Below, piece after piece: positions 2,941 to 22,772 of a DNA stretch of 24,717 nt. The DNA is from a virus. The notes beneath the pieces are model-generated. The model saw only the letters and a list, made by a program, of their open reading frames with translations, did no database searches and was not told the DNA's origin. The stretch spans positions 1 to 24,717 of IMG/VR virus record IMGVR_UViG_3300010155_004294; one strand, written 5' to 3'. The position numbers and the translations under genes are program-made. Each line of letters starts with the position of its first letter. Position 1 is the stretch's first letter.

Positions 2941-2948
2941 CTTATATG

Positions 2949-5941: not shown

Positions 5942-6655
5942 TTATGTTGTTGATTTGGATGGTGAAATTGACACTGTTATCGATTTGGTCCTTGTTCTTG
6001 TATTTGTTTTTGTTCTGGTTTGTGTCCATGTTGGTGTTGGTGTCACAACAACGTTTGAAACCGTATTTGTATATGTTGGTGTCCTTGTTTGTGTTGGTGT
6101 CGAAGATCTTGTTTGTGTTGGTGTTGGTGTGAGTGGATCTGTGTTAGACGCCGTTATTGTGTGTGTCTGAGTTTGTGTTCTAGTTTGTGTTGGTGTTCTA
6201 GTTTGTGTTGGTGACTGAGTAATGCTCTTTGTAGGGGTAGGATAATTACTAGGAGATTGGGTAATAGATGTTGTTCTTGTCGGTGTCTGGGTTTGTGTTC
6301 TCGACATTGTTGGTGTTTGTGATCTAGTCTGTGTTTGGGTTGGTGATTGTGTAGTAGTATTGCTTGGTGTTCGAGATCTAGTTACGGTTCGTGTTGGTGT
6401 TACTGGTGGTGTTTGTGATCTAGTAACTGTATATGTAGGCGTTCTTGTTCCTGTAGGTGTTTGAGTTACTGATTTTGTTCTGGTTTTTGTAGGCGAAGGT
6501 GTAGGGGTTTGTGTAGGTGAAGGGGTTGGAGTTATTGTTCTTGTAGGTGTAGGCCATGGATAACCTTCAATATTAATTTTAGACCACTCAGTCCCTATTT
6601 CTGGACCAGTATTTTGACGTCTAATCAGGTCTCTAAATGTTGGAATACCCGCCAC
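5942..6655 (-). CDS. Thr-Pro repeat protein, probable virion fibre or extended linker (237 aa)
   Basis: Only about 35 N-terminal residues (MAGIPTFRDLIRRQ through EGYPWP) are of normal composition. The rest to the C-terminus is Thr, Pro, Gln, Arg and Ser in a degenerate hexapeptide rhythm of the PTQTRT type. Such chains are extended and often surface-exposed. The GTG at 6655 is chosen as start because a late box ends 5 nt before it and no ATG lies upstream in frame. It sits between the other Thr-Pro protein and the portal. No enzymatic motif is present. A virion role is inferred from the late box and neighbours; Thr-rich repeats are plausible O-glycosylation targets, which is speculative. Confidence 0.7.
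   Translation of the reverse strand: MAGIPTFRDLIRRQNTGPEIGTEWSKINIEGYPWPTPTRTITPTPSPTQTPTPSPTKTRTKSVTQTPTGTRTPTYTVTRSQTPPVTPTRTVTRSRTPSNTTTQSPTQTQTRSQTPTMSRTQTQTPTRTTSITQSPSNYPTPTKSITQSPTQTRTPTQTRTQTQTHTITASNTDPLTPTPTQTRSSTPTQTRTPTYTNTVSNVVVTPTPTWTQTRTKTNTRTRTKSITVSISPSKSTT
5945..6565 (-). repeat. Degenerate 18-bp coding repeat (Thr-Pro-Gln-Thr-Arg-Thr type)
   Basis: The coding strand repeats 6-bp and 18-bp units encoding PT, QT and RT dipeptides, making the top strand almost entirely G and T. Unit boundaries are imperfect, with insertions such as TTSITQSPSNYP. Slippage or recombination could change its length. Confidence 0.8.
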
Positions 6656-6735: not shown

Positions 6736-7758
6736 TCACGCTATTGTTGGTGTTGGTGTTGGCGTTTGTGTCGGTGTTTGAGTTTGTGTAGCAGTTCGAG
6801 AAACTGTTCTTGATGGTGTTCTTGTAGGTGAAGCACCTCGCGTTTTAGTTTGGGTTTGGGTTCTAGTTTGTGTTGGTGTTTGTGTCGGTGTTTGTGTTTG
6901 TGTCGGAGTTTGGCTTGATGTACGTGTTCTAGTTCTAGTCTGTGTAGGTGTTCTTGTAGGAGAAGCTGTTTGGCTTGGTGTTTGTGTTCTTGTAGAAGTA
7001 ACAGTTTTGGTATATGTTTGAGTACGAGTCTGTGTTGGTGTCTGCGTTGGTGTTCTAGTTTGTGTTGGTGTGCGTGTCTGTGTTGGTGTTTGTGATCTTG
7101 TCCGCGTTACACCAATAGTGGGTGTTTGCGTTTGTGTTGGTGTTCTAGTTTGTGTTGGTGTTTGAGTTTTTGTTGATGTATTTGTTACATTTAGAGTAGT
7201 GGTTGGTGTGGGTGTTCTAGTTTGTGTTGATGTTCTAGTTTGCGTCGGTGTAGGTGTAGGTGTCCTTGGTACTAATCTAGATTGAACATAAAAAGGCGGT
7301 GCATTTGGATCTGTATTATAACCATAAGCACAACCTGGAAATTCCGTTTGGCCACCGGGTGATGTTATAATAATTTTAAATGGGCCGGTTGCTTTACCCG
7401 ATAACGCTGTTAGGTCTATACTAATTGTCTGCTTAGAATAATTTTTTAATACACCACCACCAAAATCTATCACGTTAAAACCACTAAACGCTGGGAATCT
7501 TGCCGATAAAGCTCTGTTAGTGGCAAAATAATTTACACTACTTAACGGGGTTGAAGATAAAGAACCTGAAAAGAAATCCGACGGGTTACCTGCACTTAAA
7601 AATGCTTGATAATATTTTGTAAGGCCTTTAACACCAGCTGATTTTAACCAAGGAGAATCAAATTCAAACACAGTGCGGTTTTCACTAAAAATAAGCTGAC
7701 CGCCATGTTGACCCGAAAGCGCATAATTAACTAATAAAGGTATTCTTTTTCTCACCAT
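6736..7758 (-). CDS. Virion-type protein: unique N-terminal domain plus long Thr-Pro repeat tail (340 aa)
   Basis: Residues 1 to about 165 look globular and beta-rich (for example SGQHGGQLIFSENRTVFEF and a later FKIIITSPGGQTEF). I do not recognise the family. Residues about 165-340 are a Thr/Pro/Gln/Arg repeat of PTQTRT type like that in the downstream gene, ending in TPTPTPTIA. The architecture of a small head plus long extended tail fits a fibre or whisker. The start overlaps the gp15-like gene by 7 nt, so it is probably translated from the late transcript started at 8565-8572. In T4, genes 16 to 19 lie between 15 and 20; here the two Thr-Pro genes occupy that place. Confidence 0.7.
   Translation of the reverse strand: MVRKRIPLLVNYALSGQHGGQLIFSENRTVFEFDSPWLKSAGVKGLTKYYQAFLSAGNPSDFFSGSLSSTPLSSVNYFATNRALSARFPAFSGFNVIDFGGGVLKNYSKQTISIDLTALSGKATGPFKIIITSPGGQTEFPGCAYGYNTDPNAPPFYVQSRLVPRTPTPTPTQTRTSTQTRTPTPTTTLNVTNTSTKTQTPTQTRTPTQTQTPTIGVTRTRSQTPTQTRTPTQTRTPTQTPTQTRTQTYTKTVTSTRTQTPSQTASPTRTPTQTRTRTRTSSQTPTQTQTPTQTPTQTRTQTQTKTRGASPTRTPSRTVSRTATQTQTPTQTPTPTPTIA
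6739..7262 (-). repeat. Degenerate 18-bp coding repeat, second copy region
   Basis: This is the same PTQTRT-type coding repeat as at 5945-6565, separated from it by the 80-nt gap and a short unique N-terminus. The top strand repeatedly reads like TGTGTTGGTGTTCTAGTT, an 18-bp unit. Two neighbouring genes with near-identical units could recombine. Confidence 0.8.
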
Positions 7759-8558: not shown

Positions 8559-8564
8559 TTCAAA

Positions 8565-8572
8565 TATTTATT
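8565..8572 (-). promoter_or_regulatory. T4-type late promoter box AATAAATA
   Basis: AATAAATA touches the helicase stop codon and ends 6 nt before the gp15-like ATG. The predicted +1 is 1 nt upstream of the ATG. It marks the boundary between the replication-type and virion-type halves of the window. Confidence 0.65.
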
Positions 8573-10200
8573 CAAACCAAACGTTCAATGAAATGTTTAG
8601 GTAGTTTGTTTTTATTTTGAGATATTAATGTTCTCGCTTTACCATCTAGTACATACGTTACTGCATAGTCTGTTTTAGATCTAGTACAACGGCCTGTAGT
8701 TTGTACTAATGTACATAACGCCTTATTTGCATACCAGTCTTTGTCCATATCAAACATCTTTTTAATTCTTTTATTTGATAAAGGTGGGTATGGCGTTTTA
8801 ACAATAATTTGGAATCTTCCCTTATCGTCAATTAAATCTGTACCAAAAGATAAAGAAGGTGAAACCAGAACCGTTGGTTCTGAACTACTAAAATGTTCTT
8901 TTAGTATTTGTTCATTAGTTGCAGTTTGTTCTCTAAATAAAAACCTATCACCAGTTAACCTGTTCTTTAAGTAATTGCATATTTCTAATGAATGGGTATG
9001 TACTATACCTTTTTCTCCTTTATGATGATCACATAAATCTTGAACATTCTTTGCTATAATTGGTAAAAACTTTTGTAGATTTTGATAATTAAGTACCGGT
9101 TTAGCAGAAAGATAAACCGGAGACTTACTCGGATCAAATACTGAAGGTGATTCTATATATTTGTATTTTTTAATACCTAAAACCTTAGCATACTGTTCGT
9201 GGTCTGTAATAGTAGCAGACATTAGTAAAATGTTATCACCATAGTCAAAAATATGCTTACTCAAATTGTCTATCTTAAGGGGTGTAAAACTAACTCCATC
9301 TGATTTTCGGTCAACAACGTACTCACATTTATGCCACGTTTGTTCAACAGTACTTAAATTACCATGTAAAGATTTTAAATATCTTAATTTTGAAACTTCA
9401 GGTAAAGACAAATTTATAACTTTATTGGTGCTTCTATTTGTGAGCTCATTTACTTTCTCACTTACTGAAAATATTAAACTAATAAGCCACCTATATTGTA
9501 TATCATACTTATCTGATTTTAATTTCGAAAAATCTATGTTGTTGAGCTCCAACCGTTTATAATCAACATCAGCACTAAATCTTCTAACCAATTCTTCTTC
9601 TAATTCAGAAGCTTCGTCACATACTAAAAAATTTTTACGCTTAACGTGCCCGGGTAGACTTAAAAACATTTTGTAATTAAGTACCGCAAAAGGGCTCGAT
9701 AGAGAAGTGTTTCTATTAGAAAAATAAGGACAACAATTTTTTTCCCAACACTCGTTTTTTAATTTAGGGGTAGTTACACAAGGAGCTGTCTCAACATCAT
9801 ATGTTTCATCTACACTACAAATATAATTTTGTTTGCCTTTTAATATTTCAATATCGTCAAATAATTTTTTATATTGATCTTGTAATTGCTTCGTGATGGT
9901 TAAAGCAAATGTACCCGATGCGGGTTCACCTAAACAGTCTGTTTCAAAAATATAATTACCGTGTTGGTCTTTTCGAAAAGCATTATAGGAATTAATTAGA
10001 CCTTTAAAATGGTCAGTAGGTGGTGTACCTACATTACCTAATGTTCTAGGAATAAAACTCTTACCGGTTCCAGTCGGTGCAGAAACAATTACAAATTTAT
10101 ACCCGTCATTAAACGCCTTTTCTACTTCTTTAAGAAGTTTAGTTTGAGAATTAGACGGGCTATAACCATCAGGAAACTTAGCAATATATTTGCTGAACAT
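8572..10200 (-). CDS. DinG/XPD-type superfamily 2 DNA helicase with Fe-S cluster cysteines (542 aa)
   Basis: Motif I (Walker A) is APTGTGKS at 41-48 and motif II is DEAS at 195-198, a DEAH-box variant. Between them Cys128, Cys141, Cys151 and Cys156 or 157 (the last just before PYF) match the four-cysteine Fe-S domain of XPD/DinG/FancJ helicases, which unwind DNA 5' to 3'. Motif III is SAT in LLMSATITD; motif V resembles SFGTDLIDDKGR and motif VI is QTTGRCTRSKTDYAVTYVLD with the catalytic arginines. The combination is specific to the Rad3/XPD/DinG group rather than the T4 UvsW or Dda helicases. It is preceded by a good sigma70-type promoter, suggesting early expression. It probably acts in phage DNA replication or repair. 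Confidence 0.85.
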   Translation of the reverse strand: MFSKYIAKFPDGYSPSNSQTKLLKEVEKAFNDGYKFVIVSAPTGTGKSFIPRTLGNVGTPPTDHFKGLINSYNAFRKDQHGNYIFETDCLGEPASGTFALTITKQLQDQYKKLFDDIEILKGKQNYICSVDETYDVETAPCVTTPKLKNECWEKNCCPYFSNRNTSLSSPFAVLNYKMFLSLPGHVKRKNFLVCDEASELEEELVRRFSADVDYKRLELNNIDFSKLKSDKYDIQYRWLISLIFSVSEKVNELTNRSTNKVINLSLPEVSKLRYLKSLHGNLSTVEQTWHKCEYVVDRKSDGVSFTPLKIDNLSKHIFDYGDNILLMSATITDHEQYAKVLGIKKYKYIESPSVFDPSKSPVYLSAKPVLNYQNLQKFLPIIAKNVQDLCDHHKGEKGIVHTHSLEICNYLKNRLTGDRFLFREQTATNEQILKEHFSSSEPTVLVSPSLSFGTDLIDDKGRFQIIVKTPYPPLSNKRIKKMFDMDKDWYANKALCTLVQTTGRCTRSKTDYAVTYVLDGKARTLISQNKNKLPKHFIERLV

Positions 10201-11719: not shown

Positions 11720-12121
11720 CTATTTCAATGCTGTTTTAATGTTAGATATATCTACTTGTCCGCTATCAATATACTGCTGCACTTCTCTTTTTGAAATTTC
11801 AAATCTTTTAGCTAAAAATTTTACTATTTCATCGTAATTATCAATATCTTTACGTTTTTCTTTTTTGATATAATTTATCTTACCCGGTGAACCTCTTGGT
11901 ATTATTTTAACTAGATATTCATACCATTCTTTTTTCGAATCAAAAACGTTATAATACTTGTTTGTGGTTTCATTTATAATTTTTGCATTTTCTGGGGAGT
12001 ACATACTAACCCAACGATCAACCAAGTAACCGTTAAACTGGTCTTCATCTTCAACATTTTCAATAATAGTGCCTTTTTTACCAAAAATTATATCGTTTAT
12101 AAATGTGAAAATATTAATCAT
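11720..12121 (-). CDS. 62: Sliding-clamp loader small subunit, T4 gp62-like (133 aa)
   Basis: The gp44-gp62 complex loads the gp45 sliding clamp on DNA for replication and late transcription. The protein matches the shape of marine gp62 proteins: an N-terminal FxF-type helix, a FNGYLVDRWVSMYSPEN segment at 29-45, then KIIPRG at 72-77 and KFLAKRFEISKREVQQYID at 101-119, equivalent to T4's AVPRG and KLLAKRYQV segments. It is shorter than T4 gp62 (187 aa), as are the marine ones that I recall. It overlaps the GT2-like gene by 8 nt and lies outside the expected 44-62 neighbourhood, since no gp44 gene is adjacent here. It implies that a gp45 clamp exists elsewhere, consistent with the late promoters. 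Confidence 0.75.
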   Translation of the reverse strand: MINIFTFINDIIFGKKGTIIENVEDEDQFNGYLVDRWVSMYSPENAKIINETTNKYYNVFDSKKEWYEYLVKIIPRGSPGKINYIKKEKRKDIDNYDEIVKFLAKRFEISKREVQQYIDSGQVDISNIKTALK

Positions 12122-12917
12122 CTAAATTTAAAAGTTCTTTTTTTCTTGTATAATCATTGTACCATTTTATATTTGAATCCATATCTTTCAAGTGGTTTTC
12201 GTAATGGAAACCATGATGTGTTTTTTTAGCATATTCTTTAGTACGTTTACTTTTTTCTGTATTTATATGGCGGAAATAATCTACACCTAAGTATCTAAAA
12301 GACAAATTATGTATAACGGTATCGTCCCAAAATACATCCCCCTTAGATTGAGCAGTATGGCAACCAAAATCGTATCGTATATCGACCTTTGATGGATTAA
12401 AGATTAAATTTTTATCTAAAGTAATATCGCGCATACCTTCTAGTGTATAATTATCCAAAATATCCTCACAAGTAAATTTTGTTTCTGGAACACTATCCAT
12501 AACTACATCATACCCCTTCATTTTAAAAATTGTGGTGTCAGAATCTTTTTTCGAATCTAATATTTCGATCAACCGTCTGTTAAATAAAAATTCATCTATA
12601 TCTACAATAAACACCCAATCATAGTTTGATTCGTCAGCTGGATTAGAAAATTGCTTATAATAATGATTTCTAAACAACATCAATACATCTTCTCTATGTT
12701 CTTTTGTGTCGCAATGAATTAAAGAAACGTTTGGGTTTTGAGCACTAAAAGATTGTATTAATTCAACAGAAGAATCATCACTCCCAAAATCTATATAAAT
12801 TAGATTGCTTTCTTTATTTTTTTGTAAATCAATCAGATAGTTATAGTAATGAAAGTGAAAAGGTAGCAACCGTTCTTCATTATAAACAGGGCTGATTATT
12901 AATAATTTACTTTCCAT
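12114..12917 (-). CDS. GT-A fold glycosyltransferase, GT2/GT92-like (267 aa)
   Basis: The N-terminus (LLIISPVYNEERLLPF, residues 5-20) and the DID at 106-108 in WVFIVDIDEFLF form the usual GT-A nucleotide-sugar and metal-binding set. A C-terminal histidine-rich segment (HTAQSKG, later HHGFHY) follows, as in GT92-type and Glyco_tranf_2_4-type enzymes. It most likely transfers a sugar from a nucleotide donor in the cytoplasm; donor and acceptor are unknown. It is co-translated with its neighbours, overlapping the 49-aa gene by 11 nt and gp62 by 8 nt. Confidence 0.8.
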   Translation of the reverse strand: MESKLLIISPVYNEERLLPFHFHYYNYLIDLQKNKESNLIYIDFGSDDSSVELIQSFSAQNPNVSLIHCDTKEHREDVLMLFRNHYYKQFSNPADESNYDWVFIVDIDEFLFNRRLIEILDSKKDSDTTIFKMKGYDVVMDSVPETKFTCEDILDNYTLEGMRDITLDKNLIFNPSKVDIRYDFGCHTAQSKGDVFWDDTVIHNLSFRYLGVDYFRHINTEKSKRTKEYAKKTHHGFHYENHLKDMDSNIKWYNDYTRKKELLNLDD

Positions 12918-13056
12918 CTTTTAGATCGGTACCTAAGAGTTTAGCACCACCTAACTTGGCTTCATACTCATATAAGTGTTTTTTCCAAGTATGGTATTCG
13001 TATAATTCTCTCAAATATCTAAACCAATTTATTATCATCATAAACCTATATTTCAT
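12907..13056 (-). CDS. Small basic aromatic protein (49 aa)
   Basis: A complete 49-codon frame runs from the ATG at 13056 to TAA at 12907, starting 4 nt after the DUF366-like stop and ending inside the start of the glycosyltransferase. The N-terminal half (MKYRFMMIINWFRYLRELYE) is amphipathic and aromatic; the C-terminal half includes EAKLGGAKLLGTDLKDGK. No family is recognised. It fills what would otherwise be a 140-nt gap in a densely coupled operon, which supports a real gene; with no homologue shown, the call is moderate. Confidence 0.6.
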   Translation of the reverse strand: MKYRFMMIINWFRYLRELYEYHTWKKHLYEYEAKLGGAKLLGTDLKDGK

Positions 13057-13060
13057 AATA

Positions 13061-13654
13061 TTACTTAATTATTACTTTCGACGTCGCAATGAACATATCA
13101 TCATTCAATTCATAAAAAATTTTCTGTACATCTTTCATAAACTCTTCTGCTACTTCGTCATTAAATTCTGTACTAAATGCAAATGCAGGAGCCTTCTTAC
13201 CAGCTTTTATATTAAGAGCAGTATGACCTAAAGCAACACCAGATTTAACATAAGTGATGCTCACACTTACTTTGCCTTCTTGCTGAGTAACACCACCTTG
13301 TGTAAATTCTTTTTCTACCATAATATCATCACCATCCATCCTTACAGGACAATTCAAATATTTCGCACTACTTAGAAGATTAGCAATATGGGTGTTTAAA
13401 AGTCTTTGATATGCAACCGCACCAAATGCATTGTCTAAAATTGGAATCTCCCATAGAAAGTTTATTGCATCATCACTCCAAATAAATTCTTGTCGATCAA
13501 TATCTTCTTGATCAATCATTCCGTCTGCTAATACCTCCATTGGAGCTCTAAAACAAAGAATATTACCTATAGGTAATACTTTATCTTTAAAGAACTTATA
13601 TGCAAATCTGCCGTGAAGTAAGTTACCGTCGTATTTATCGATATTAAATTCCAT
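13061..13654 (-). CDS. DUF366-like phage protein of unknown function (197 aa)
   Basis: The arrangement RAPMEVLADGMIDQEDI at about 36-52, IWSDDAINFLWEIP next, then AVAYQRLLNTHIANLL, MDGDDIMV and KVSVSITYVKSGVALGHTALNI follows the DUF366 pattern, with conserved acidic clusters (DQEDI, SDDAINF) and the KVSVSI strand. Family members in bacteria and T4-like marine phages have no proved activity. The gene begins with a TATAAT 7 nt upstream, inside a palindrome, so it may open a sub-operon with the 49-aa protein, a glycosyltransferase and gp62. Confidence 0.6.
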   Translation of the reverse strand: MEFNIDKYDGNLLHGRFAYKFFKDKVLPIGNILCFRAPMEVLADGMIDQEDIDRQEFIWSDDAINFLWEIPILDNAFGAVAYQRLLNTHIANLLSSAKYLNCPVRMDGDDIMVEKEFTQGGVTQQEGKVSVSITYVKSGVALGHTALNIKAGKKAPAFAFSTEFNDEVAEEFMKDVQKIFYELNDDMFIATSKVIIK

Positions 13655-13656
13655 AT

Positions 13657-13671
13657 GATCTATTATAGATC
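13657..13671. repeat. Perfect 6-bp inverted repeat over the -10 box
   Basis: GATCTA at 13657-13662 and TAGATC at 13666-13671 are separated by 3 nt. The palindrome covers the TATAAT of the promoter at 13662-13689 and ends 2 nt from the start codon of the DUF366-like gene. It could be an operator or a methylation-sensitive GATC pair; both are untested ideas. Confidence 0.4.
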
Positions 13672-13689
13672 AAGCTACTCAGAATTCAA
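13662..13689 (-). promoter_or_regulatory. Sigma70-type promoter, leaderless geometry, for DUF366-like gene
   Basis: TTGAAT at 13684-13689 and TATAAT at 13662-13667 are 16 bp apart. The -10 ends 7 nt before the ATG at 13654, the same spacing as at the helicase gene. It lies at the end of the pyrophosphatase gene. Confidence 0.6.
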
Positions 13690-14205
13690 TTTATTTTTCC
13701 ACCTTTTGTGTGCCGTGTTAATTATTTTTTTGGCTTCAGATTTGTTTAACCATCCATTAACAATAGAGATTTTATCCTTTTCTAGATCTTTATAATGAGT
13801 AAAAAATTGCAAAGTAGTTGCTAACCAATGAGGATCTAAATCTTTCAAATTTTTATAGTCTTTAATATGCGAAGTGGGTACACCAACTACTTTATAATCT
13901 TTTTTACCTGTATCATCCATGTCCAAAACACCAATCGGTTTGACTTCTACTAGAGTACTTGTGCGTAATGGTACGTTATTGTATATCAATATATCCAATG
14001 GGTCGTCGTCTAAAGCATAAGTTTGAGGAATAAATCCATACGAGCACGTATATCTCATACTACTATACAAACATCTACTAAGTCTAAATATATTAAGCTC
14101 TTCTACGTATTCATATTTTGAATTGCTGTCTTTTTCTACTTCCACTACTGCATTAACTACTAGTGGGTAATCTTGCCCTATTGGTATATCATTTACTAGA
14201 TTCAT
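13675..14205 (-). CDS. ppa: Inorganic pyrophosphatase, family I (176 aa)
   Basis: Soluble family I enzymes hydrolyse PPi to two phosphates, pulling forward polymerase and nucleotide-sugar reactions. The length (176 aa) equals the E. coli enzyme. Recalled E. coli active-site residues have counterparts here: KYE at 30-32 (K29), Arg44 (R43), SYGF with Tyr56 (Y55), DDDPLD with Asp66, Asp68, Asp71 (D65, D67, D70), Asp98 and Asp103 (D97, D102), Lys105 (K104), and HYKDLEK with Tyr138 and Lys139 (Y141, K142). An active enzyme is therefore expected. It overlaps the methyltransferase-like gene by 17 nt in the sugar operon, suggesting co-translation. It is an auxiliary metabolic gene by context; its benefit to glycosylation or DNA synthesis is inferred. 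Confidence 0.92.
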   Translation of the reverse strand: MNLVNDIPIGQDYPLVVNAVVEVEKDSNSKYEYVEELNIFRLSRCLYSSMRYTCSYGFIPQTYALDDDPLDILIYNNVPLRTSTLVEVKPIGVLDMDDTGKKDYKVVGVPTSHIKDYKNLKDLDPHWLATTLQFFTHYKDLEKDKISIVNGWLNKSEAKKIINTAHKRWKNKLNSE

Positions 14206-14833
14206 TTTTAAAAGCCTTTGGTTTTGTAACTAAATATCCTTGATGTTTGTACACTTTTTGAAAATCGTGTGTGTCTTTAAATTTATCATACAAAAAAGAT
14301 AAATCTTTTCCTTTTACGATTTCTTCTCTTGTAACATTATGGTTGTTCATTTTACAGTGTTCATTAAACCCCACACCTTTTATTTTTATGTCCTCATATA
14401 GCCAAAGATCATCACTAACTATAATATCGTTATATTTTCCTATTCTTTTACTAATTAAATCTATCTCTCTTTCTAGAGGCAGATTAGTATCTTGTTCCAT
14501 TTTTAGACATTCTTCATACTTTACTAAGTGAGCGTCAGCACCCGGAAAATGTGCATCAAGCCAAAAAAATGCATCTCTGTTTATAGTAGGTAATATTTCT
14601 TCTAAAACATTAAATGAATTACCTTCATAAATCGATACATAAGGGTAACCAGCAAATTTTTCTTTAGCTTTTTTAGCTAACGTGGGTTCTATTTCTATTG
14701 AGTGTATATCATAAAACCCTGCTCTATGTGCTTCAAGTATACCATGACCATATAAAGTACCGGTTTCAATAAACGTACCAATTCCGGTATTTCTACGAAT
14801 ATTTTTTAAATCAAAATCTCCTATCGTACCCAT
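14189..14833 (-). CDS. Class I SAM-dependent methyltransferase-like protein (214 aa)
   Basis: Residues 21-31 (FIETGTLYGHG) form a motif I-like glycine loop, followed by SIEIEPTLAKKA with the acidic residues that usually contact the cofactor ribose, and FFWLDAHF where motif IV is expected. This pattern fits the class I SAM methyltransferase fold of the small FkbM/MTF24-like type. Substrate is unknown; in a sugar operon, O-methylation of a sugar is plausible. A bare TATAAT lies 7 nt upstream of the ATG. A non-methylating or degenerate enzyme is possible, since the GxGxG is not classical. Confidence 0.6.
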   Translation of the reverse strand: MGTIGDFDLKNIRRNTGIGTFIETGTLYGHGILEAHRAGFYDIHSIEIEPTLAKKAKEKFAGYPYVSIYEGNSFNVLEEILPTINRDAFFWLDAHFPGADAHLVKYEECLKMEQDTNLPLEREIDLISKRIGKYNDIIVSDDLWLYEDIKIKGVGFNEHCKMNNHNVTREEIVKGKDLSFLYDKFKDTHDFQKVYKHQGYLVTKPKAFKNESSK

Positions 14834-14840
14834 GACCTAT

Positions 14841-14846
14841 ATTATA
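14841..14846 (-). promoter_or_regulatory. TATAAT -10 element 7 nt upstream of the methyltransferase-like ATG
   Basis: A perfect TATAAT lies 7 nt before the ATG at 14833. No convincing -35 is seen at 16-17 bp. The spacing matches the two full sigma70-type promoters in this window, so it is listed with lower confidence. A weak AGG (ATAGGTC) also sits just before the ATG. Confidence 0.45.
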
Positions 14847-14847
14847 C

Positions 14848-15576
14848 TCACCAGTCACAAAAATCCCATTTAACTTTTTTAGGAATATAACCAACGTGTC
14901 CCCAAAAAGTAGGTTGCCATTTACTGTGTAAATTTAAAACTTTTGCTTTTAAATTTAACTTTTCTAAAATATAAATAAAGCACGTTTCAATCATATGGAT
15001 CTCTGATGCATTTTCAAAAATCCAACACCAATCAAATACACTGAACCCCCTGTATGGTTTTAATTTAATGATTTTTTTATCACCATCGTAGGGAACGTTT
15101 CTGGTAGTGTGATTTGGAAACGTACCGTATGTATCACTCACTACAACAAAATCATCACCGTCTTTAATTCTAAGAAAATCTTTTAACTCTTTTTCCTTTT
15201 CTTGATCTCTTCTAAAATTAAAATATAAATCCCAATCTTCAAACCCTTCTTGCATATTACAAAAATAATATTTTGCTTTCATTACAGACATATTAGTATA
15301 AATTTGATCTGAATGTTGTAACGGTACGTATAAAATGTCATCCTTTTTTACAATTTGATTTATATCAGTATTATATAATTCTGATGTATCTTTAAAATTA
15401 GATAAAGGAATGAAATTAATATTTTTCGCATCTAAATAATCATTAAGACAAGCACAATATTGGTCTTCAACTGGCCAACAAACTTCATCAACGGTACCTT
15501 CTAATAACTTTTTTACAATCTTTTGAGTATAAAAAACATCACCTATACCACCTGGTTGCCGTATTAAACATTTCAT
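14848..15576 (-). CDS. GT-B glycosyltransferase, GT9/heptosyltransferase-like (242 aa)
   Basis: The N-terminal motif IRQPGGIGDVFYTQKIV (residues 5-21) is the hallmark of ADP-heptose/GT9-type enzymes (RxxGxGDxLxxxP), and the C-terminal half holds the glycine- and acid-rich helix-strand layout (ENASEIHMIETCFIYILEKL) of the GT-B donor-binding domain. At 242 aa it is shorter than classic heptosyltransferases. A GTG at 15591 opens the frame 5 codons earlier, but the ATG at 15576 overlaps the previous stop as TAATG and gives the natural N-terminus. Donor and acceptor are unknown. Confidence 0.65.
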   Translation of the reverse strand: MKCLIRQPGGIGDVFYTQKIVKKLLEGTVDEVCWPVEDQYCACLNDYLDAKNINFIPLSNFKDTSELYNTDINQIVKKDDILYVPLQHSDQIYTNMSVMKAKYYFCNMQEGFEDWDLYFNFRRDQEKEKELKDFLRIKDGDDFVVVSDTYGTFPNHTTRNVPYDGDKKIIKLKPYRGFSVFDWCWIFENASEIHMIETCFIYILEKLNLKAKVLNLHSKWQPTFWGHVGYIPKKVKWDFCDW

Positions 15577-16367
15577 TATATTTCTAACCACTTAGGGTCA
15601 ATCAAATCTTGAGCTGGGGGCCCTTTTGGGCCAAACCATTTTTTAGGACAAGTTACAATTTCTTTTTCTTTACCTAAATATGCCCCCCATGATGAAAAAG
15701 AACTATTTCCCATTATAACCGAATCACACTCAGATAAAACACACATATCCATCAATTCATCAGACCCATTAGCTAAAACATTTTTACTATCGAACTTAAA
15801 TTCTTTTCTAACTTGAGTTTCATCATCGGTACAATACAAAAACAATGCATCTTTATCAAAATTTTCTTTAGCTTTATTATAATAATCGCTCCCTAAAATA
15901 GGAAATATCTGAGGATTTTTATAATAATCACCTCTTCTAATATGCACACCCACTACTTCAGTAGCTTGATATTTTTCTTTTAGTTTTCGTATAGCTTGCT
16001 TAGTTTTGGTTACACAATCAACATTAAATGTAAAAATATTATTCAATTCATCTCTATCTAAATTTTTAAAATATTTCCAGCTTTGAAAATAACCATCATA
16101 CACCACGTCGTGTTCAATACCCAAAAATGGTAATTTTTTATATTTGAAAGAAGGTTCTCTACATGCAATATGAAAAGGTAAATTTATTGTTTCTAAATTT
16201 TTGTATAAGCTCTTCTTATATGTTTTAGGGTGGTGACCTTGCATTGCACCAAACTCTAAACTATAGTTAATAACAAATTTTACATTATACTCTTTAGCAT
16301 GTGCATAAATTGTTGCAATTTGATATAACTGATTTCCTAACCCGCCTTTTAATTGTACTGTAATCAT
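15576..16367 (-). CDS. GT11-type alpha-1,2-fucosyltransferase-like protein (263 aa)
   Basis: GT11 enzymes transfer fucose from GDP-fucose. The hallmarks are present: GGLGNQLYQIA at 8-18, DGYFQSWKYF at 91-100, HIRRGDYY at 142-149 (the GDP-fucose-binding HxRRxD), and CDSVIMGNSSFSSWGAYLG at 214-232. Length (263 aa) is in the family range. The ATG at 16367 is chosen over an upstream Met in the same frame because it overlaps the preceding stop (TAATG) and leaves a clean N-terminus. In bacteria the enzyme adds terminal fucose to O-antigen or other glycans. Acceptor here is unknown; a lectin-like activity or another 6-deoxyhexose is possible. Confidence 0.88.
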   Translation of the reverse strand: MITVQLKGGLGNQLYQIATIYAHAKEYNVKFVINYSLEFGAMQGHHPKTYKKSLYKNLETINLPFHIACREPSFKYKKLPFLGIEHDVVYDGYFQSWKYFKNLDRDELNNIFTFNVDCVTKTKQAIRKLKEKYQATEVVGVHIRRGDYYKNPQIFPILGSDYYNKAKENFDKDALFLYCTDDETQVRKEFKFDSKNVLANGSDELMDMCVLSECDSVIMGNSSFSSWGAYLGKEKEIVTCPKKWFGPKGPPAQDLIDPKWLEI

Positions 16368-17194
16368 TAATCGAATAAAAATGGATACTCTTTGTATATC
16401 CAATCTTCAGGAACTCTAAATTCCTCTACTTTGTTAAAATTTTCTTCTACCGCGTCAAGCCTATAAGCATAAAAATCAATATCTATTTTATCGACTATGT
16501 CATCAAGCTCTTCAATAGTATCAAAATATATTATACCTTCCGGATTAAAAAATTTATTAACTGAAAATTTGTCACCGTAGTAAATAGGTATTGTTTTTGT
16601 AGCAAAAGCATCTAATAATTTTTCTGTCCAATAACCTCTAACAATTGCATTTTCAATAGTAACAGAAAAATAATATGGATTGAGACCGTCTTCTTTTTTT
16701 TCTAAAACATTCTCTGCGTACTTTCCATAACAATCCATTTTATCAGTAGTTTTATATCTATCTACTATCATATGTCTTAATCTATGACCTAAAGTGAATG
16801 CTTTATCAGAAGCAAAAATACTACAAAATTTTGATTTACTATCAATTCCTTCGTAATTATGAATCCAACATCTACCGTGAGGGTAATACAAATAATTTTC
16901 CCCCTTATCAATAAGTTTTTGATCAAAAGTTAAAACAAAATCATAAAGCCTATTGTTTTGTTCAATCCAATTATACATATGCGGACTAATACTTCTAGGT
17001 TCTAATAGCCAGGCCACTTTACGTTTCACACCACCTGCTTTATTTACATCTTCTAAACACAAATCAGTAATAAAACAACTTTTACTGACGGGTGCATTAT
17101 CAGCAACCCACTCAACAAATTTATTTTGTGCTAGATGGCATGATGACTTATCATACCCAATAAAATTTTTATCTCGTATATTTGCTTTTACCAT
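16367..17194 (-). CDS. GT10-type alpha-1,3-fucosyltransferase-like protein (275 aa)
   Basis: The C-terminal block from about residue 175 (FSVTIENAIVRGYWTEKLLDAF followed by TKTIPIYYG, ending near 207) is the signature of GT10 fucosyltransferases, in which FxxxxENxxxxxYxTEKxxxAxxxGxVPxYxG lines the GDP-fucose site. The N-terminal half is divergent, with KRKVAWLLEPRSISP at 58-71. It sits next to the GT11-like gene with a 1-nt overlap, so two potential fucosyltransferases are co-translated. The donor could be GDP-fucose or a related GDP-6-deoxy sugar; no donor-synthesis gene lies in this window. Confidence 0.82.
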   Translation of the reverse strand: MVKANIRDKNFIGYDKSSCHLAQNKFVEWVADNAPVSKSCFITDLCLEDVNKAGGVKRKVAWLLEPRSISPHMYNWIEQNNRLYDFVLTFDQKLIDKGENYLYYPHGRCWIHNYEGIDSKSKFCSIFASDKAFTLGHRLRHMIVDRYKTTDKMDCYGKYAENVLEKKEDGLNPYYFSVTIENAIVRGYWTEKLLDAFATKTIPIYYGDKFSVNKFFNPEGIIYFDTIEELDDIVDKIDIDFYAYRLDAVEENFNKVEEFRVPEDWIYKEYPFLFD

Positions 17195-18069
17195 TCCCAG
17201 CCTTTAATATGTTTCCACAACTCTTGCTCAGTCATTTCTTCTATTTTAGTACATTCCTTTTGATTTTCAAGATAAGGATCAAAAGTGTCTGGTCCACCAT
17301 CATATTTGGTAGTTTCTGCATCTGTCACAGTAGTATTTGTGTGAGGAAAATGATATAAAAAATCTAATCTCTGATTACATTTATGAATGTCGTATCCTAA
17401 AATTCTCATACGACTTACCATTTCACTATCTTCATAACCCCAGCCTACAAATTTTTCATTAAACCCTTTTATTTTTTTAAAATCTTTTCTTAACCCCAAC
17501 AAACAACCACCAACCGCCGTGCAGCCCATTACTTTACAGTATTCATAATCCATACGATCAGGCCATGAAGGGAACCCTCTTTTATAATTTTCTAAAGCCA
17601 TAGAAATCATTTTTAAATCAGGGCAAAACGTGTCAAGAGTTTTTATTGATTGTTGATTTCTAAAAATCTCCTTTGCTTTATAATTCAAATATAACGGCAT
17701 GCCGTTATAACACACACCAAAACCTGGTTCTTTCTTTAAAGTATCTTTTATTTTTATAATTTGTTCCGGTTTTGCAACACAATCTAAATCTAAACACAAT
17801 ATAAATTTTCTACTTGCTTCTCTTATACCTTTATTATATGAAGCGCACTTTTTAAAATGCAAGTCATTATATGAGTGTATTATTTTATCTTCTTCACATA
17901 AAGGTATGTATTGAGACAATACAGGGGTAATAGAATCTTCTACATAAATAAATCTACTATTTTTTGTGTGTTGTTTAAAAAACGCATAGGATAAAAAAGC
18001 ATTAATTGCTCTTTCGTGGTTATCTATCCTAGATGCTACAACTATATCAATGTCTTTAAAATCTATCAT
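17188..18069 (-). CDS. GT-A glycosyltransferase with GWGYED motif, GT2/GT7-like (293 aa)
   Basis: The N-terminal DIVVASRIDNHERA and the DLD at 94-96 in LCLDLDCVAKP give the nucleotide-sugar and metal site. FNEKFVGWGYEDSEM at about 203-217 is the acceptor/divalent-metal region seen in GT7 and the chondroitin-polymerase-type GT2 enzymes (GWGxED). The gene at 19005-19859 has the same motifs at the same residue numbers and is a tandem paralogue. Acceptor is unknown. It overlaps the GT10-like gene by 7 nt. Confidence 0.8.
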   Translation of the reverse strand: MIDFKDIDIVVASRIDNHERAINAFLSYAFFKQHTKNSRFIYVEDSITPVLSQYIPLCEEDKIIHSYNDLHFKKCASYNKGIREASRKFILCLDLDCVAKPEQIIKIKDTLKKEPGFGVCYNGMPLYLNYKAKEIFRNQQSIKTLDTFCPDLKMISMALENYKRGFPSWPDRMDYEYCKVMGCTAVGGCLLGLRKDFKKIKGFNEKFVGWGYEDSEMVSRMRILGYDIHKCNQRLDFLYHFPHTNTTVTDAETTKYDGGPDTFDPYLENQKECTKIEEMTEQELWKHIKGWEW

Positions 18070-18072
18070 ATA

Positions 18073-19005
18073 TTATTCTAAAAAGTTAGGTATACCGAGT
18101 TCTTGTCTTAGTAGCTTTACAGAATGAGACCCGTCACCGATATAACGATTGTCAAGTATAGTGTAAAACCAAGTATTGGGGTCAATTTTTTCTCTGTCTT
18201 CTCCCACTAGAAGCTTTTCTCTAACTATTCTATCAGCGTGGTATTTCAAATCACTTTCTTTTGTTGCAAAATCTCTAAACGGTACTATATCATTAAAAGC
18301 TTCTGTACGTCTTTGCAAAACGTCTACACCTGATCGATGATATAAAAAATCTCTTCCAGGGGTATATATATCATCAAAAGTAACATGTAGACTTTTGTCA
18401 TATAAATCAAACCCACCTTCTGGTTGACCCAAATTTGTATGCATGTGGCACTCAACTATTTCTTTATCGTAGTGACCTATCCTATCTTTTCCCGGGCCTT
18501 TAATTTTAATACGACGTTTAAATTCTTTTTTATTATTCGTATACATGTCATTAATCAAATGATTAAGAACTTCATTATCCGCAAAGCCAGGATATGCCAT
18601 CTTAGGAGCTAACTCAATAATTTGATCTACTATCCTTGCTGTTGTTTCATCATTTTTCCAAAATCCGTGTCCTGATGCACAATTAGGTAAAGGTGAACCT
18701 AATTGTTGATCTAAAATAAGAGAGTATTTGTTATCAATATAATCTTCAAACTTTTTATAAAAGTTCATTACCAGACAATCAGCATCTATCCAAAAAATCC
18801 AATCGTAATTAGGTAAATGTTTTTTTATGAAAGGGTATCTAGCAAAAAAAGATTTACCCTCTTCTTGATGAACACCATCAACATTAGAAGTAAAAAAGTG
18901 TATATCGTAATTGTGTTTTAAACAATATTGCTGCAAAATAGGCAACGTTATATTCAATAAATTTAACTGTTTTTCATCAGCCCCAGTTAATACCCCAATT
19001 TTCAT
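18073..19005 (-). CDS. GT34-like / DxD glycosyltransferase (310 aa)
   Basis: The N-terminus (MKIGVLTGADEKQ) and the run KKHLPNYDWIFWIDADCLVMN with the DAD at 74-76 match the galactosyltransferase/alpha-1,6-mannosyltransferase (GT34, GMA12/MNN10) arrangement, including a later histidine- and aspartate-bearing block (CHMHTNLG, then HVTFDDIY). GT34 members are retaining, so a different linkage from the GT2-type enzymes is expected. Met5 of the longest frame is taken as start, at 19005, because it overlaps the preceding stop as TAATG. The specific sugar is unknown. Confidence 0.7.
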   Translation of the reverse strand: MKIGVLTGADEKQLNLLNITLPILQQYCLKHNYDIHFFTSNVDGVHQEEGKSFFARYPFIKKHLPNYDWIFWIDADCLVMNFYKKFEDYIDNKYSLILDQQLGSPLPNCASGHGFWKNDETTARIVDQIIELAPKMAYPGFADNEVLNHLINDMYTNNKKEFKRRIKIKGPGKDRIGHYDKEIVECHMHTNLGQPEGGFDLYDKSLHVTFDDIYTPGRDFLYHRSGVDVLQRRTEAFNDIVPFRDFATKESDLKYHADRIVREKLLVGEDREKIDPNTWFYTILDNRYIGDGSHSVKLLRQELGIPNFLE

Positions 19006-19859
19006 TACATTACCCAACTTCTTGTATATTCTTTTAACTCGTCAGAAGAAGAAGTTTCAACATGAGTCATAATTTTTTTATTTTCTTTATAAAAGGGTTG
19101 TTTTTCCTTTTCTGAACCAGTGCCGTCAAAATGATGTAAATGCCATATAACTTTACCTTCACCTTCAATTCTACCTACACCATAACCTAACTTCGCCATT
19201 CTATAGGGGGCTTCATCGTCCTCATATCCCCAACCTAAAAAATTAGGATTATATCCATTACATCTAATCATATTATCTCTTCTACCCATTACACAACCAC
19301 CTTTACTTGATACGTGGCCAATCATAACGCCTTCATACACATTATCAATATAACTAAACAGGGTTTCTAATGAACTATCTCTAGATCCGATATATGTTTT
19401 AAATTTTTCTGGTATTTTTAAATCACCATAATCTAAAGACGAACAAAATTTATCTTTTAATTCTTTTTCAGCACATAAAAACAACCCGTTATATGGATAT
19501 AACAAACAACTATTTTTATCTTTAGATAAAAGGTTTGAAGTTTCTAAAATTTGCTTTGGGTGAATTATTACATCAACGTCAATAAGATTTAAAATATTTG
19601 TTTTGGCTAATTTAATTCCTTTATTGAACCCTTCACCTTTTCGCCATTCGGTATCACTTTTAGAAAATATACATACGTCATCTTTATGCAAATCTAATAA
19701 AACGGGTACCTTACATTCACTATCATCTTCTATAAAAATATGAATATAATTTTTACATGTTTTTCTATAATAGCCATGCATAGCTTTTAAATTGTTTTTT
19801 CGTTCTTCGTTGTCTATTCTAACAAAGGTTAAAAAAGTTATACCTTTTAAGTCATACAT
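19005..19859 (-). CDS. GT-A glycosyltransferase with GWGYED motif, tandem paralogue (284 aa)
   Basis: It has the same layout as the gene at 17188-18069: an N-terminal strand ending in RIDNEERKNN, DVD at 94-96, a Gly-Gly-Cys pair at about 187-189 and NPNFLGWGYEDDE at about 204-216. It is likely a duplicated, diverged sugar transferase acting at a different step. It overlaps the GT2-like gene upstream by 8 nt and the GT34-like gene downstream by 1 nt. Confidence 0.8.
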   Translation of the reverse strand: MYDLKGITFLTFVRIDNEERKNNLKAMHGYYRKTCKNYIHIFIEDDSECKVPVLLDLHKDDVCIFSKSDTEWRKGEGFNKGIKLAKTNILNLIDVDVIIHPKQILETSNLLSKDKNSCLLYPYNGLFLCAEKELKDKFCSSLDYGDLKIPEKFKTYIGSRDSSLETLFSYIDNVYEGVMIGHVSSKGGCVMGRRDNMIRCNGYNPNFLGWGYEDDEAPYRMAKLGYGVGRIEGEGKVIWHLHHFDGTGSEKEKQPFYKENKKIMTHVETSSSDELKEYTRSWVM

Positions 19860-20874
19860 TGTTTTTTATACCTTTCAATATTTTACAAACATCTTCAAAC
19901 AATAAATCAGGAACCGGTTTGTCGTAAGCAGGCTTATAACCGTGTTTGTCTAAAAATATCTCAACAGCTTCCCATATATTTTTTTCCCAATCTGGTCGAC
20001 CTCTAATAGTGCTGTTATCTTCACTACAGGCCAGTTCATCTAGATAATCATAACTATTAGCTACGTCAGCCCACCACCAATAAGGAGTAGACATTTTTTC
20101 TTTTGCTAACATATATGAATGATCAACGTGTTCAAAAGCATTAATATAGCGGTTATCAAACAAACCAACCTTTTCAAAACAACTCCTATGATAATATGTA
20201 AAAGCACCCACACAATGTCTATTAAGAGCAATTGAGACACCATCACCATAATCAACTATTTTTCTTGGAGAAGGTTTGCCATTTCTTTTATTAGCTGGTC
20301 CATGGTAACCATACATTAAATGTTTTAACCCTGTTTTCTTACTTACTTCAATATACTTTTCAAAAACGTTCTCATCTTTGATTATAATATCGTCTTCCAT
20401 TATAAACATATGATCTACACCTTGTTTATCACCCGGCCAATTCTGCAATTCTTGAGAATGACCAGTTTTTAGCAGTTCTGTAAATGCCCAGTTTTTAGCA
20501 AAACCAACACCTCTATTACCGCCAGTATAAAAATAATTACCACAAAGGCCGTTTTTACTATATACAAACCTTCTTGGGCCATGATCTGATTTATCTTTAA
20601 AATCTGCACTATCACCATCATTAATAAGAACGATATAATCAATTTTATGTCTAGGTATAGAATCTAATACTTTTTTTAAAAAATCTTCTCGATTACAAGT
20701 AACAATACCTAACCCTACGGTATCTTTAAGGGGGGGAGGTTTCCAAGATGGTATTGTCCCCATCCAGTCCCAATATGCAGAGCGCGCTGCGATCGCGGCC
20801 GGTCTTTCAGCATTAATACCAACCAGTTTCCCTTGACCGTTTAGTATCTGTTGAGGTGACTTAGAAATTGCCAT
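19852..20874 (-). CDS. GT2-like glycosyltransferase heading the sugar operon (340 aa)
   Basis: TVGLGIVTCNREDFLKKVLDSI (52-73), the GGNRGVGFAKN motif (118-128) and MEDDI with the EDD at 160-162 form a GT2 GT-A fold. A preceding, atypical ~50-residue N-terminal region (MAISKSPQQILNGQ) is unlike most GT2 members. The frame is open to an ATG at 20895, but a full sigma70-type promoter has its -10 at 20886-20891, downstream of that ATG. The start is therefore placed at 20874, giving a leader of about 4-5 nt. It is the promoter-proximal gene of a coupled run ending at 14848 or further. Confidence 0.78.
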   Translation of the reverse strand: MAISKSPQQILNGQGKLVGINAERPAAIAARSAYWDWMGTIPSWKPPPLKDTVGLGIVTCNREDFLKKVLDSIPRHKIDYIVLINDGDSADFKDKSDHGPRRFVYSKNGLCGNYFYTGGNRGVGFAKNWAFTELLKTGHSQELQNWPGDKQGVDHMFIMEDDIIIKDENVFEKYIEVSKKTGLKHLMYGYHGPANKRNGKPSPRKIVDYGDGVSIALNRHCVGAFTYYHRSCFEKVGLFDNRYINAFEHVDHSYMLAKEKMSTPYWWWADVANSYDYLDELACSEDNSTIRGRPDWEKNIWEAVEIFLDKHGYKPAYDKPVPDLLFEDVCKILKGIKNNV

Positions 20875-20878
20875 TGTA

Positions 20879-20886
20879 CATAAATA
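20879..20886 (+). promoter_or_regulatory. Second late-type CATAAATA box, tandem with 20893
   Basis: CATAAATA on the plus strand, 14 bp upstream of the box at 20893-20900. Its predicted start (near 20892) would give a 15-nt leader for the plus gene. It overlaps the minus-strand early -10 by 1 bp. It may be a chance match or a real tandem site. Confidence 0.35.
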
Positions 20887-20913
20887 TTTTAGCATAAATA
20901 ATTAAAATGTCAA
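20886..20913 (-). promoter_or_regulatory. Sigma70-type promoter for the sugar-transfer operon
   Basis: TTGACA (perfect) at 20908-20913 and TAAAAT (5 of 6) at 20886-20891, 16 bp apart, on the minus strand. The -35 lies over the first codons of the plus-strand gene. The predicted +1 falls near 20879, a few nt before the ATG at 20874. It is interleaved with the plus late box. Confidence 0.65.
20893..20900 (+). promoter_or_regulatory. T4-type late promoter box CATAAATA for the plus-strand gene
   Basis: CATAAATA ends 6 nt before the ATG at 20907, placing the predicted +1 1 nt upstream of the start codon. It is the only late box serving a plus-strand gene and lies inside the spacer of the minus-strand early promoter. 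Confidence 0.65.
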
Positions 20914-22019
20914 TTGGTAACACTAATTTTATCACACTAGACAGTATTGCAGAGATACAAGATATCGCAGATGGGGATTATGTATTTACTGTATCGAATG
21001 GTGTAATATATAAACTAGATTTTCAAAATTTTGTTATTCCTTTACAAAATGTAGACTTTGCTACAACAATAGAGTCAATGTCTGCTCAACTAGTTTCTCT
21101 TACCAATGCATTCAGCGCTGTAAATACGACAGTAAATGCGCTTGTCTCCCTTGAATTCATGCCTGCATTATCTGCAAATTGGACCAGTACATGGCAAACA
21201 GTTAACACGTTAAGTGCTACTAACTGGTTACCAGATATTGATAAAGTATCACCAGGGAGTGTAGTATATTATGAGGGAGGCAATTCTGGGTGGAAATACA
21301 CACAACAAGGAAAAGAAGGTAACGTATTAACAGTAAAAAACGCTGTACCAACTTTCGCTGGTTCATCAACATTTACAGGTGTAAATTCTCAATCAATTAC
21401 GTATCAATATACAGATACAAACAGCACCGACTACCCTATAATTGAAACAATGTCCTTTTCTACACAGCAAGAATATGCAGCTTTACAGATAAATTGGGAC
21501 GTTTCATGGACAGATGGGGCGTTAACAAATATTTTCAGGAGTGGTAAAAAATATGCTTCAACGATTAAAAATCTATCAAGATTGTATATAAAGTATGATC
21601 CAACAGCAGAAGTTCCAGACACGGTTCATCAATCCGGTTTAGTGTACCTTCCGGCCGGTACCAATGGACCTGATCCGGTACAATTTATGGTGATACCGCA
21701 ATTGGAAGTTACTCTAACTGAGGACCCGAACGACCCGGGGGCGGATCTACGAACTTCGTATCTTGTTGGTGAAGCTACATCATTAGGAAACACAGGTAAT
21801 GGTGAGACTAGGTGGCAAGAAACAGACCCTGCTATTATTGACTCTGTTATAGACGGTGTGATACCAGGCGGTCTACCGTCAACGAATAGTAATATTCCTT
21901 ACCATTGGAACTTTAACACAGGTAAGAATTTGGATGCTGGAAGTGTAATTAGGAATTTTGGTCAAGATGGGCCCGTTTATAATAAATGTACTGTTACTCT
22001 AAGCATTCAAGGGCGTTAA
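20907..22019 (+). CDS. Lone plus-strand fibre-like structural protein (370 aa)
   Basis: The only plus-strand gene. It is rich in Thr, Ser, Asn, Val and Gly, has no enzymatic motif that I recognise, and has hydrophilic beta-like patterns. A short N-terminal segment (TLDSIAEIQDIADGDYVFTV) could be an attachment or trimerisation helix. A late promoter 6 nt before the ATG suggests a late virion protein such as a fibre or decoration protein. Its stop overlaps the stop of the minus-strand ATPase gene by 4 nt, so there is no intergenic terminator. The neighbourhood suggests an inserted cassette. Function beyond structural is not shown. Confidence 0.65.
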   Translation: MSIGNTNFITLDSIAEIQDIADGDYVFTVSNGVIYKLDFQNFVIPLQNVDFATTIESMSAQLVSLTNAFSAVNTTVNALVSLEFMPALSANWTSTWQTVNTLSATNWLPDIDKVSPGSVVYYEGGNSGWKYTQQGKEGNVLTVKNAVPTFAGSSTFTGVNSQSITYQYTDTNSTDYPIIETMSFSTQQEYAALQINWDVSWTDGALTNIFRSGKKYASTIKNLSRLYIKYDPTAEVPDTVHQSGLVYLPAGTNGPDPVQFMVIPQLEVTLTEDPNDPGADLRTSYLVGEATSLGNTGNGETRWQETDPAIIDSVIDGVIPGGLPSTNSNIPYHWNFNTGKNLDAGSVIRNFGQDGPVYNKCTVTLSIQGR

Positions 22020-22768
22020 TATCTTCGCGAATCTTGAATCATTTTGTATATATTATCTGAATATATTTTTTCTTTAGCTATTTCCATTTGCTGATCTCTT
22101 AGAATATTTTCCATGTCTGTTACTTCTTCAGGATCCAAAATAGTCGAATTATTATCACCTAACAAATCACCCTCAGCATCTATATATTGTCTTGCTAAAT
22201 GAACTCGTTCTTTCTGATTACCAAATATTTCTACAATTGCTGGGCAATCATCATAAGGTAAGAATGGAGAACCTTTAAGATTTTGAAAATATTGCTGTTC
22301 CATTCCTTTAAAAATATTATCTATTTCTTCTATATGTTCTTTGTTTACTGATCTGGTACCATCATCAACTAAATCAACAGGACCGACTTTAGTAATAGGT
22401 GTAAAAAATATAACATCTAAAAACTTTAAGCTTTCACGCACTACAGGAATACACTTATCTATAAATTCTTTATCTATATCATTTATACTCTTTTCATGAG
22501 CCCATAGTGAATAAACAATATTATCTAGAGGACATCTATCAAAAATAACTTTATCACCCTTTTCATATTCCATGAGAGTATCCACACAGTTATTCAAAAT
22601 ACCCCATTGTGCATCTTTATTTGTATTATCACTAAGAGGTAAATTATTTTCTTCTATATATTCTCTATAAGTCTTTTCCGGGGTCGAATACATTGGCCAC
22701 TCTTTTATGAAATCTTGTATAAAAGTAGTTTTACCTTGACAAGCTGATCCTGATACTGCGATTCGCAT
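22016..22768 (-). CDS. P-loop ATPase/kinase-like protein, AAA_28/NadR-type (250 aa)
   Basis: Residues 3-16 (IAVSGSACQGKTTF) hold a Walker A, GSACQGKT. KVIFDRCPLDNIVYS at about 72-87 is the DRxPLDN-type region typical of AAA_28/NadR and deoxynucleoside-kinase-like P-loop families. It may phosphorylate a nucleotide or nucleoside. The C-terminal 60 residues are acidic and look helical. It follows the nucleotide-hydrolase-like gene by 4 nt and may work with it in precursor metabolism, by inference. It ends convergent with the plus-strand gene. Confidence 0.72.
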   Translation of the reverse strand: MRIAVSGSACQGKTTFIQDFIKEWPMYSTPEKTYREYIEENNLPLSDNTNKDAQWGILNNCVDTLMEYEKGDKVIFDRCPLDNIVYSLWAHEKSINDIDKEFIDKCIPVVRESLKFLDVIFFTPITKVGPVDLVDDGTRSVNKEHIEEIDNIFKGMEQQYFQNLKGSPFLPYDDCPAIVEIFGNQKERVHLARQYIDAEGDLLGDNNSTILDPEEVTDMENILRDQQMEIAKEKIYSDNIYKMIQDSRRY

Positions 22769-22772
22769 ATTA

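Follow-up and report, generated by a model that had tools for sequence, protein, structure and literature searches.

The 24.7-kb IMG/VR virus record IMGVR_UViG_3300010155_004294, analyzed here in its entirety (24,717 nucleotides) and referred to as the window, carries a minus-strand block of eight predicted glycosyltransferase (GT) genes, together with genes for a methyltransferase-like protein and an inorganic pyrophosphatase. Its gene content marks the window as part of the genome of a T4-like phage that has not been cultured: it encodes a T4-type portal (PHROG 213, 8e-105), a gp15-like tail sheath stabiliser, a helicase, a gp62-like clamp loader and a GroES-like protein. The window yields no megablast match among 50,697 phage records, and among cultured phages its portal comes nearest to those of marine T4-like cyanophages, with which it shares 32-34% identity. 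This distant portal, and a DUF366 protein that finds no match in the same phage records, indicate a lineage known only from metagenomes as far as these collections show.

The genes of the block and its borders are listed in Table 1 and designated below by their first coordinate. The original prediction, made without database searches, had placed eight GTs, two of them GWGYED paralogues, in one operon with the methyltransferase-like protein and the pyrophosphatase. These elements are all upheld by the evidence in the table, the weak methyltransferase match of 14189 being accompanied by ETGTLYG and WLDAHF motifs that are invariant in its orthologues. The prediction had overlooked the DUF366 gene inside the block, and its description of all junctions as overlaps of 1-17 nt has to be replaced by six overlaps (7, 8, 13, 16, 17 and 37 nt) and four gaps (3, 14, 20 and 143 nt). 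Transcription would proceed in the order 19852, 19005, 18073, 17188, 16367, 15576, 14848, 14189, 13675, 13061, 12114 and gp62, since 12114 and gp62 overlap by 8 nt and the operon thus continues into the clamp-loader gene.

Table 1. Genes of the glycosyltransferase block, its borders and the candidate acceptor genes of the window.
Feature	Coordinates	Strand	Evidence
GT2-like glycosyltransferase, last of block	12114..12917	-	PF13704 (Glyco_tranf_2_4) 5.3e-8
DUF366 protein, conserved 3' border of cassette	13061..13654	-	PF04017 6.8e-19; PDB 2ddz 5e-5; at border in relatives
Inorganic pyrophosphatase	13675..14205	-	PF00719 5e-48
Methyltransferase-like protein	14189..14833	-	weak PHROG methyltransferase match, 0.045; 8-orthologue profile vs PDB 3ntv, E 0.015
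GT9-like (GT-B) glycosyltransferase	14848..15591	-	AlphaFold model; Foldseek WaaC 2e-3
GT11 family glycosyltransferase	15576..16403	-	PF01531 5.5e-22; PHROG 2644 1.4e-43
GT10 family glycosyltransferase	16367..17194	-	PF00852 2.3e-9; relatives in cyanophages
GT7C/GT2-like glycosyltransferase with GWGYED	17188..18069	-	PF02709 3.3e-15; profile matches beta-1,4-GalT, chondroitin synthase
GT34-like glycosyltransferase	18073..19017	-	PF05637 2.3e-10; best solved relative PDB 2p6w 7e-6
GT7C/GT2-like glycosyltransferase with GWGYED, paralogue of 17188	19005..19859	-	PF02709 1.7e-10; phmmer paralogy 1e-30
GT2-like (GT-A) glycosyltransferase; alternative start 20874	19852..20895	-	PHROG 2456 7e-16; AlphaFold GT-A; invariant EDD
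Divergent fibre-like protein bordering block	20907..22019	+	conserved N-terminus, variable C-terminus; fibre role inferred
dNMP-kinase-like gene, 5' border	22016..22768	-	PF13521 3.8e-10; PHROG 2107
Clamp-loader gp62-like gene, 3' border	11720..12121	-	PHROG 225 1e-7
Mucin-like Thr/Pro protein, folded N-terminal domain; candidate acceptor	6736..7758	-	Thr+Pro fraction 0.36
Second mucin-like Thr/Pro protein; candidate acceptor	5942..6655	-	Thr+Pro fraction 0.48; in 11/11 close relatives

Each of the eight GT predictions holds up, seven of them through family profiles and that of 14848 through its predicted fold. The family searches, with predicted structures for 14848 and 19852, largely bear out the original assignments, and EDD or DXD motifs are kept across orthologues of 19852, 18073 and the GT7C pair. 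The curated Pfam cut-offs are passed by 16367 (37.6 bits vs 23.9), 15576 (78.8 vs 23.9), both members of the GT7C pair (55.9 bits for 17188 and 40.8 for 19005 vs 23), 12114 (33.7 vs 27.5) and 18073 (41 vs 23, covering profile positions 23-100 of 238 alone). The orthologue alignment of 15576 contains HIRRGDY, which we take to be the HxRRxD-type motif of GT11; D78 and D80 of the DXD motif are invariant in 18073 orthologues, and the GT7C pair likewise keeps its DXD. The 19852 product scores below the PF00535 (GT2) cut-off (13.6 bits, E 0.065, vs 23.3), but its orthologue L097:6660-7475 clears that profile at 25.9 bits and its AlphaFold model (predicted local distance difference test, pLDDT, 78.1) has a GT-A fold, so that, by homology and modeled structure, 19852 is taken to work like a GT2. 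Foldseek matches of this model to POMGNT1, GalNAc-transferases and others were set aside as generic GT-A similarity, which is not evidence for a protein acceptor. Relatives of 19852 include a protein of phage Myrna (24.5% identity) and, in a scan of GTDB, distant homologues in Pseudomonas, Lysobacteraceae and Ignavibacteria, from which no host can be assigned.

For 14848, no GT9 model appears among Pfam matches up to E 1, and a PDB sequence search with its profile was empty. Its AlphaFold model (mean pLDDT 73.7) finds WaaC as the top Foldseek match (probability 0.98), and a second structural alignment places it close to E. coli heptosyltransferase II (WaaF; Z 9.9, root-mean-square deviation 5.1 over 212 residues), a Veillonella GT9 (3tov; Z 9.5) and TibC (Z 8.8). 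Plant NDH subunits score alike in the same alignment (Z 9.2-9.4), so the fold alone does not prove GT9 membership; the model predicts a GT-B fold nearest to heptosyltransferases, and an enzyme that would work like a GT9.

Comparison with related contigs shows a fixed slot with exchanged content, located between the fibre-like gene and DUF366/gp62. Twenty compared rows hold a 19852 orthologue and DUF366, two of them (L108 and L116) being one contig, and in the resulting 19 distinct contigs the stretch running from 19852 up to DUF366 comprises 4-20 genes. The neighbor beyond 19852 is divergent in 18 of the 19, G016 being the exception, and either shares the N-terminus of the fibre-like protein or stands in its place. 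The nine genes from 19852 to the pyrophosphatase follow the same order in six contigs (the window, G002, L105, L106, L107 and L108). Elsewhere the content is exchanged, encompassing GT2, GT10, GT11, GT47, FkbM methyltransferases and epimerases; the cassette of G009, which ends at the contig edge, encodes two epimerase/dehydratases, a sulfotransferase, methyltransferases and a GT34-methyltransferase fusion. Among 138 proteins from 13 cassettes of wider relatives, the commonest Pfam matches are GT2 (24), GT11 (10), RXYLT1_C (8), GT47 (7), FkbM (7), Methyltransf_24 (7), GDP-mannose dehydratase (5) and GT10 (5); these counts come from the first 25 of 74 families, allow several matches per protein and exclude open reading frames under 120 aa.

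The GT genes are under purifying selection, with omega between window and L105 ranging from 0.09 to 0.30 for the seven shared GTs (portal, 0.08); the methyltransferase-like gene gives 0.58 at a synonymous distance of merely 0.04. Conservation in relatives under this constraint argues that the block is more than a set of chance reading frames. Single GT alleles are, judging by these alignments, exchanged between relatives. Synonymous distances between the window and L105 are 0.89 and 0.95 in the first two GTs vs 0.14-0.43 in the others, and identities form a mosaic: L105 and G002 share 93% in 19005, 65% and 55% in the next two GTs and 54-83% in the next five overall, whereas G002 and L106 share 69% in 19005, 95% and 89% in the next two GTs and 89-98% in the next five overall. 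Both patterns point to the part of the cassette beside the fibre-like gene as the most exchanged within the clade.

Membrane machinery is absent from these cassettes. In a set of 192 cassette proteins, made up of the 138 above and 54 from six records, no protein has two hydrophobic segments and a single marginal one is present in five, whereas two of the ten proteins of an Ignavibacterium polysaccharide cluster used as a yardstick have 12-13. The initiating phosphoglycosyltransferase PF02397 is found in none of 26 records, the control matching in 9 of 14 genomes. Phage-encoded lipid-linked assembly and flipping are therefore improbable.

We interpret the block, with a probability of about 0.5, as a lineage-specific, exchangeable cytosolic cassette that builds an oligosaccharide, most likely on virion surface proteins. 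As originally predicted, it mixes GT-A and GT-B enzymes (19852 and 14848, by their models) and includes neither a donor-synthesis gene nor a flippase, which makes stepwise assembly from host donors likely; related cassettes do hold donor-modifying genes resembling epimerases and GDP-mannose dehydratases. During infection of the bacterial host, the eight GTs would add sugars singly from host nucleotide sugars, the first probably being placed by 19852, the most constant member, beside the fibre-like gene. Possible roles are the capping or decoration of a sugar for the methyltransferase-like protein and a pull on donor synthesis for the pyrophosphatase. Gene and allele swaps would alter the particle coat, as bacterial serotype loci do. 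Virion proteins rank first as acceptors, at roughly even odds, on account of the chlorovirus parallel, the absent membrane machinery and the fibre-like neighbor.

The chlorovirus PBCV-1 has at least eight putative virus-encoded GTs working outside the endoplasmic reticulum and Golgi, with fucosyltransferase and methyltransferase functions, and its GT34-like A064R joins two rhamnosyltransferases to a methyltransferase, as described in PMC7019647. The window resembles it in its eight-GT scale, its GT34-like enzyme and its methyltransferase-like component; the solved relative retrieved by the 18073 profile, 2p6w, is described as involved in glycosylation of the PBCV-1 major capsid protein, and the GT34-methyltransferase fusion of G009 is reminiscent of A064R. 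PBCV-1 differs in being a eukaryotic virus whose glycan is, in that account, N-linked to the major capsid protein. Among phages, capsid and tail-tube glycosylation by phage-encoded enzymes is reported for mycobacteriophages (Freeman 2023, as cited in PMC12619734). The Myrna relative of 19852 is a further point in common with the window, whose phage type is unrelated to theirs.

In the close clade, the chain would plausibly be attached to the two mucin-like Thr/Pro proteins encoded between gp15 and the portal, which carry tandem repeats of a kind that resembles O-glycosylation substrates. At the one fixed threshold used for these calls, mucin-like genes occur in all 11 close relatives (portal at least 81%) and, among the other 69 loci, in L071 only; contigs of the lineage showing both regions have the cassette. 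In 13 of 52 wider loci with a readable gp15-portal slot, the slot holds a 109-153 aa protein instead, and ten such short proteins are related to the N-terminal domain of 6736 (one profile comparison; hhalign probability 97.8, E 1e-12), suggesting that an old small protein probably gained its Thr/Pro tail in the close clade. The G009 counterpart is a 2075-aa protein with Gly-rich modules between Thr/Pro repeats (L012 1464-7691), possibly a long adhesin, and the T4-like contigs L136, L147, L154 and L156 encode two or three large Thr/Pro proteins in that slot; overall, the two repeat proteins are confined to the close clade and one more T4-like group. A rather unlikely elaboration is a phage-made mucin coat, in which the Thr/Pro tails grown by the small ancestral protein would be O-glycosylated by the neighboring exchangeable cassette with a strain-specific oligosaccharide, giving bacteriophages true mucin-like glycoproteins that switch serotype. 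A search of open-access literature found no phage papers on mucin-like or Thr/Pro-repeat proteins together with GTs. As a separate observation, the 58-kb phage contig L142 encodes a Thr/Pro protein within a few genes of GT7C-like and GT10-like ones (1623-3770 and 7110-8750), in a stretch lacking the backbone genes of the window lineage.

Several observations weigh against virion proteins, and the mucin-like ones in particular, as the target. None of the 52 readable slots of wider loci holds a mucin-like gene and all 13 wider cassettes reside in phages lacking one in that slot, so the mucin-like proteins are not the ancestral target. A further 17 contigs have the mucin pattern, but the portal, gp15 and helicase of the window lineage are missing from the stretches retrieved; GT2 occurs in 4 of them, as against 2 of 28 random contigs, and GT10 is present in 1, as against 1 of 28. 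With no clear association in these rates and with wider relatives that have the cassette but no mucin-like genes, strict coupling between the two was rejected. G005 has the slot with another gene set and no 19852 orthologue. The fibre-like gene does not track its neighbors, being 95% identical between G002 and L106 where the first two GTs are 81% and 69% identical; for want of this covariation, the fibre-like protein was discarded as a proven acceptor.

Other adverse points bear on host-surface remodelling, in which the GTs would act in the cytoplasm, adding sugars to lipid-linked O-antigen or lipopolysaccharide (LPS)-core intermediates and so hiding receptors from competing phages; we regard it as quite possible, short of probable. 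The 14848 fold lies close to WaaC and WaaF, GT9 relatives being LPS enzymes, and a bacterial 19852 homologue sits within the Ignavibacterium polysaccharide cluster (L234). The T4-like cyanophage S-SM2 (GU071095) has a long run of sugar genes in which a GT10 relative (35% identity) accompanies a capsular-polysaccharide gene; this run differs from the window's cassette in being rich in donor-synthesis genes, in having other neighbors and in naming no DUF366 or mucin-like product in the stretch examined. The marine T4-like pelagimyophages carry a hypervariable, GT-rich host recognition cluster for which the authors propose a host-surface role, favoring O-chain modification (PMC7029224). Both islands combine many GTs with hypervariability in a T4-like phage, but in the description given there the pelagimyophage island lies between VrlC and gp14, with tail fibres and GT8 as the most represented family, whereas the present one is bounded by the dNMP-kinase-like/fibre-like pair and DUF366/gp62 and comprises GT2, GT7, GT9-like, GT10, GT11 and GT34 members. 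Against host-surface remodelling, the 192 cassette proteins include no flippase or polymerase, no initiating enzyme and no multi-spanning protein of the GtrA type. Gtr O-antigen conversion cassettes encode multi-spanning GtrA and GtrC beside GtrB, and neither the window block nor the other cassettes contain proteins of this type. The absence of membrane proteins is nevertheless indecisive, because soluble LPS-core GTs need no membrane helix, and virion and host surface cannot be separated as targets from sequence alone.

The original prediction had also listed DNA as a target, an option that is now lowered: it seems improbable that the GTs hypermodify phage DNA with an oligosaccharide and so protect it from restriction, like those of T4 and its relatives. 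The phage is T4-like, dNMP-kinase-like and dNTP (dATP/dGTP) diphosphohydrolase-like genes (22016-23111) adjoin the block and could hint at altered nucleotides, and published work describes viral GTs that hypermodify DNA with diverse glycans (cited in PMC12619734). However, PF00303 (thymidylate synthase/dCMP hydroxymethylase) is found in none of 15 records of 42-209 kb, none of them known to be complete, and wide swapping with a sulfotransferase, FkbM and GT47 repertoire would suit surface glycans better than DNA; PF12851 (Tet_JBP) matched nowhere, controls included, and is uninformative. Least probable of all is a loose set of acquired genes without a joint product, since the strong differences in gene content among relatives that favor it are offset by the nine-gene order shared by six contigs and by the selection acting on the GTs.

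GT-rich variable islands in marine T4-like phages (PMC7029224, S-SM2) and phage virion glycosylation (PMC12619734) are already known. To our knowledge, the lineage is new, and so are its fixed slot with exchanged content, its set of enzymes and the accompanying mucin-like proteins; a search confined to open-access literature found no papers describing them. Should the cassette decorate virions, phage virion glycosylation would come to include programmed, exchangeable oligosaccharides made by an environmental T4-like lineage, for which chlorovirus capsid glycans and bacterial serotype loci offer a comparison. Should it act on the host, it would serve as a multi-enzyme device for superinfection exclusion. 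In both cases, cassettes can be gathered from the fixed slot and compared, and a phage glycan pathway could be reconstructed in vitro from the defined nine-gene set.

A late-promoter reading was rejected, the pattern TATAAATA having 3 matches vs 5.3 expected by chance. A sigma-70-like site with TG (11 of 12 positions) at 20913-20886, directed into the block and overlapping the divergent 20907 start, belongs to a class of sites that is unenriched in the region (57 found vs 66.7 expected). At the other end of the block, DUF366 is the constant border gene of the cassettes. Beyond it, 12114 has orthologues, among the compared records, only in the near-identical contig G004, and L108 encodes in the same DUF366-gp62 slot (18017-18829) a protein with weak GIY-YIG/NUMOD3 matches, so that this interval looks like an insertion point.

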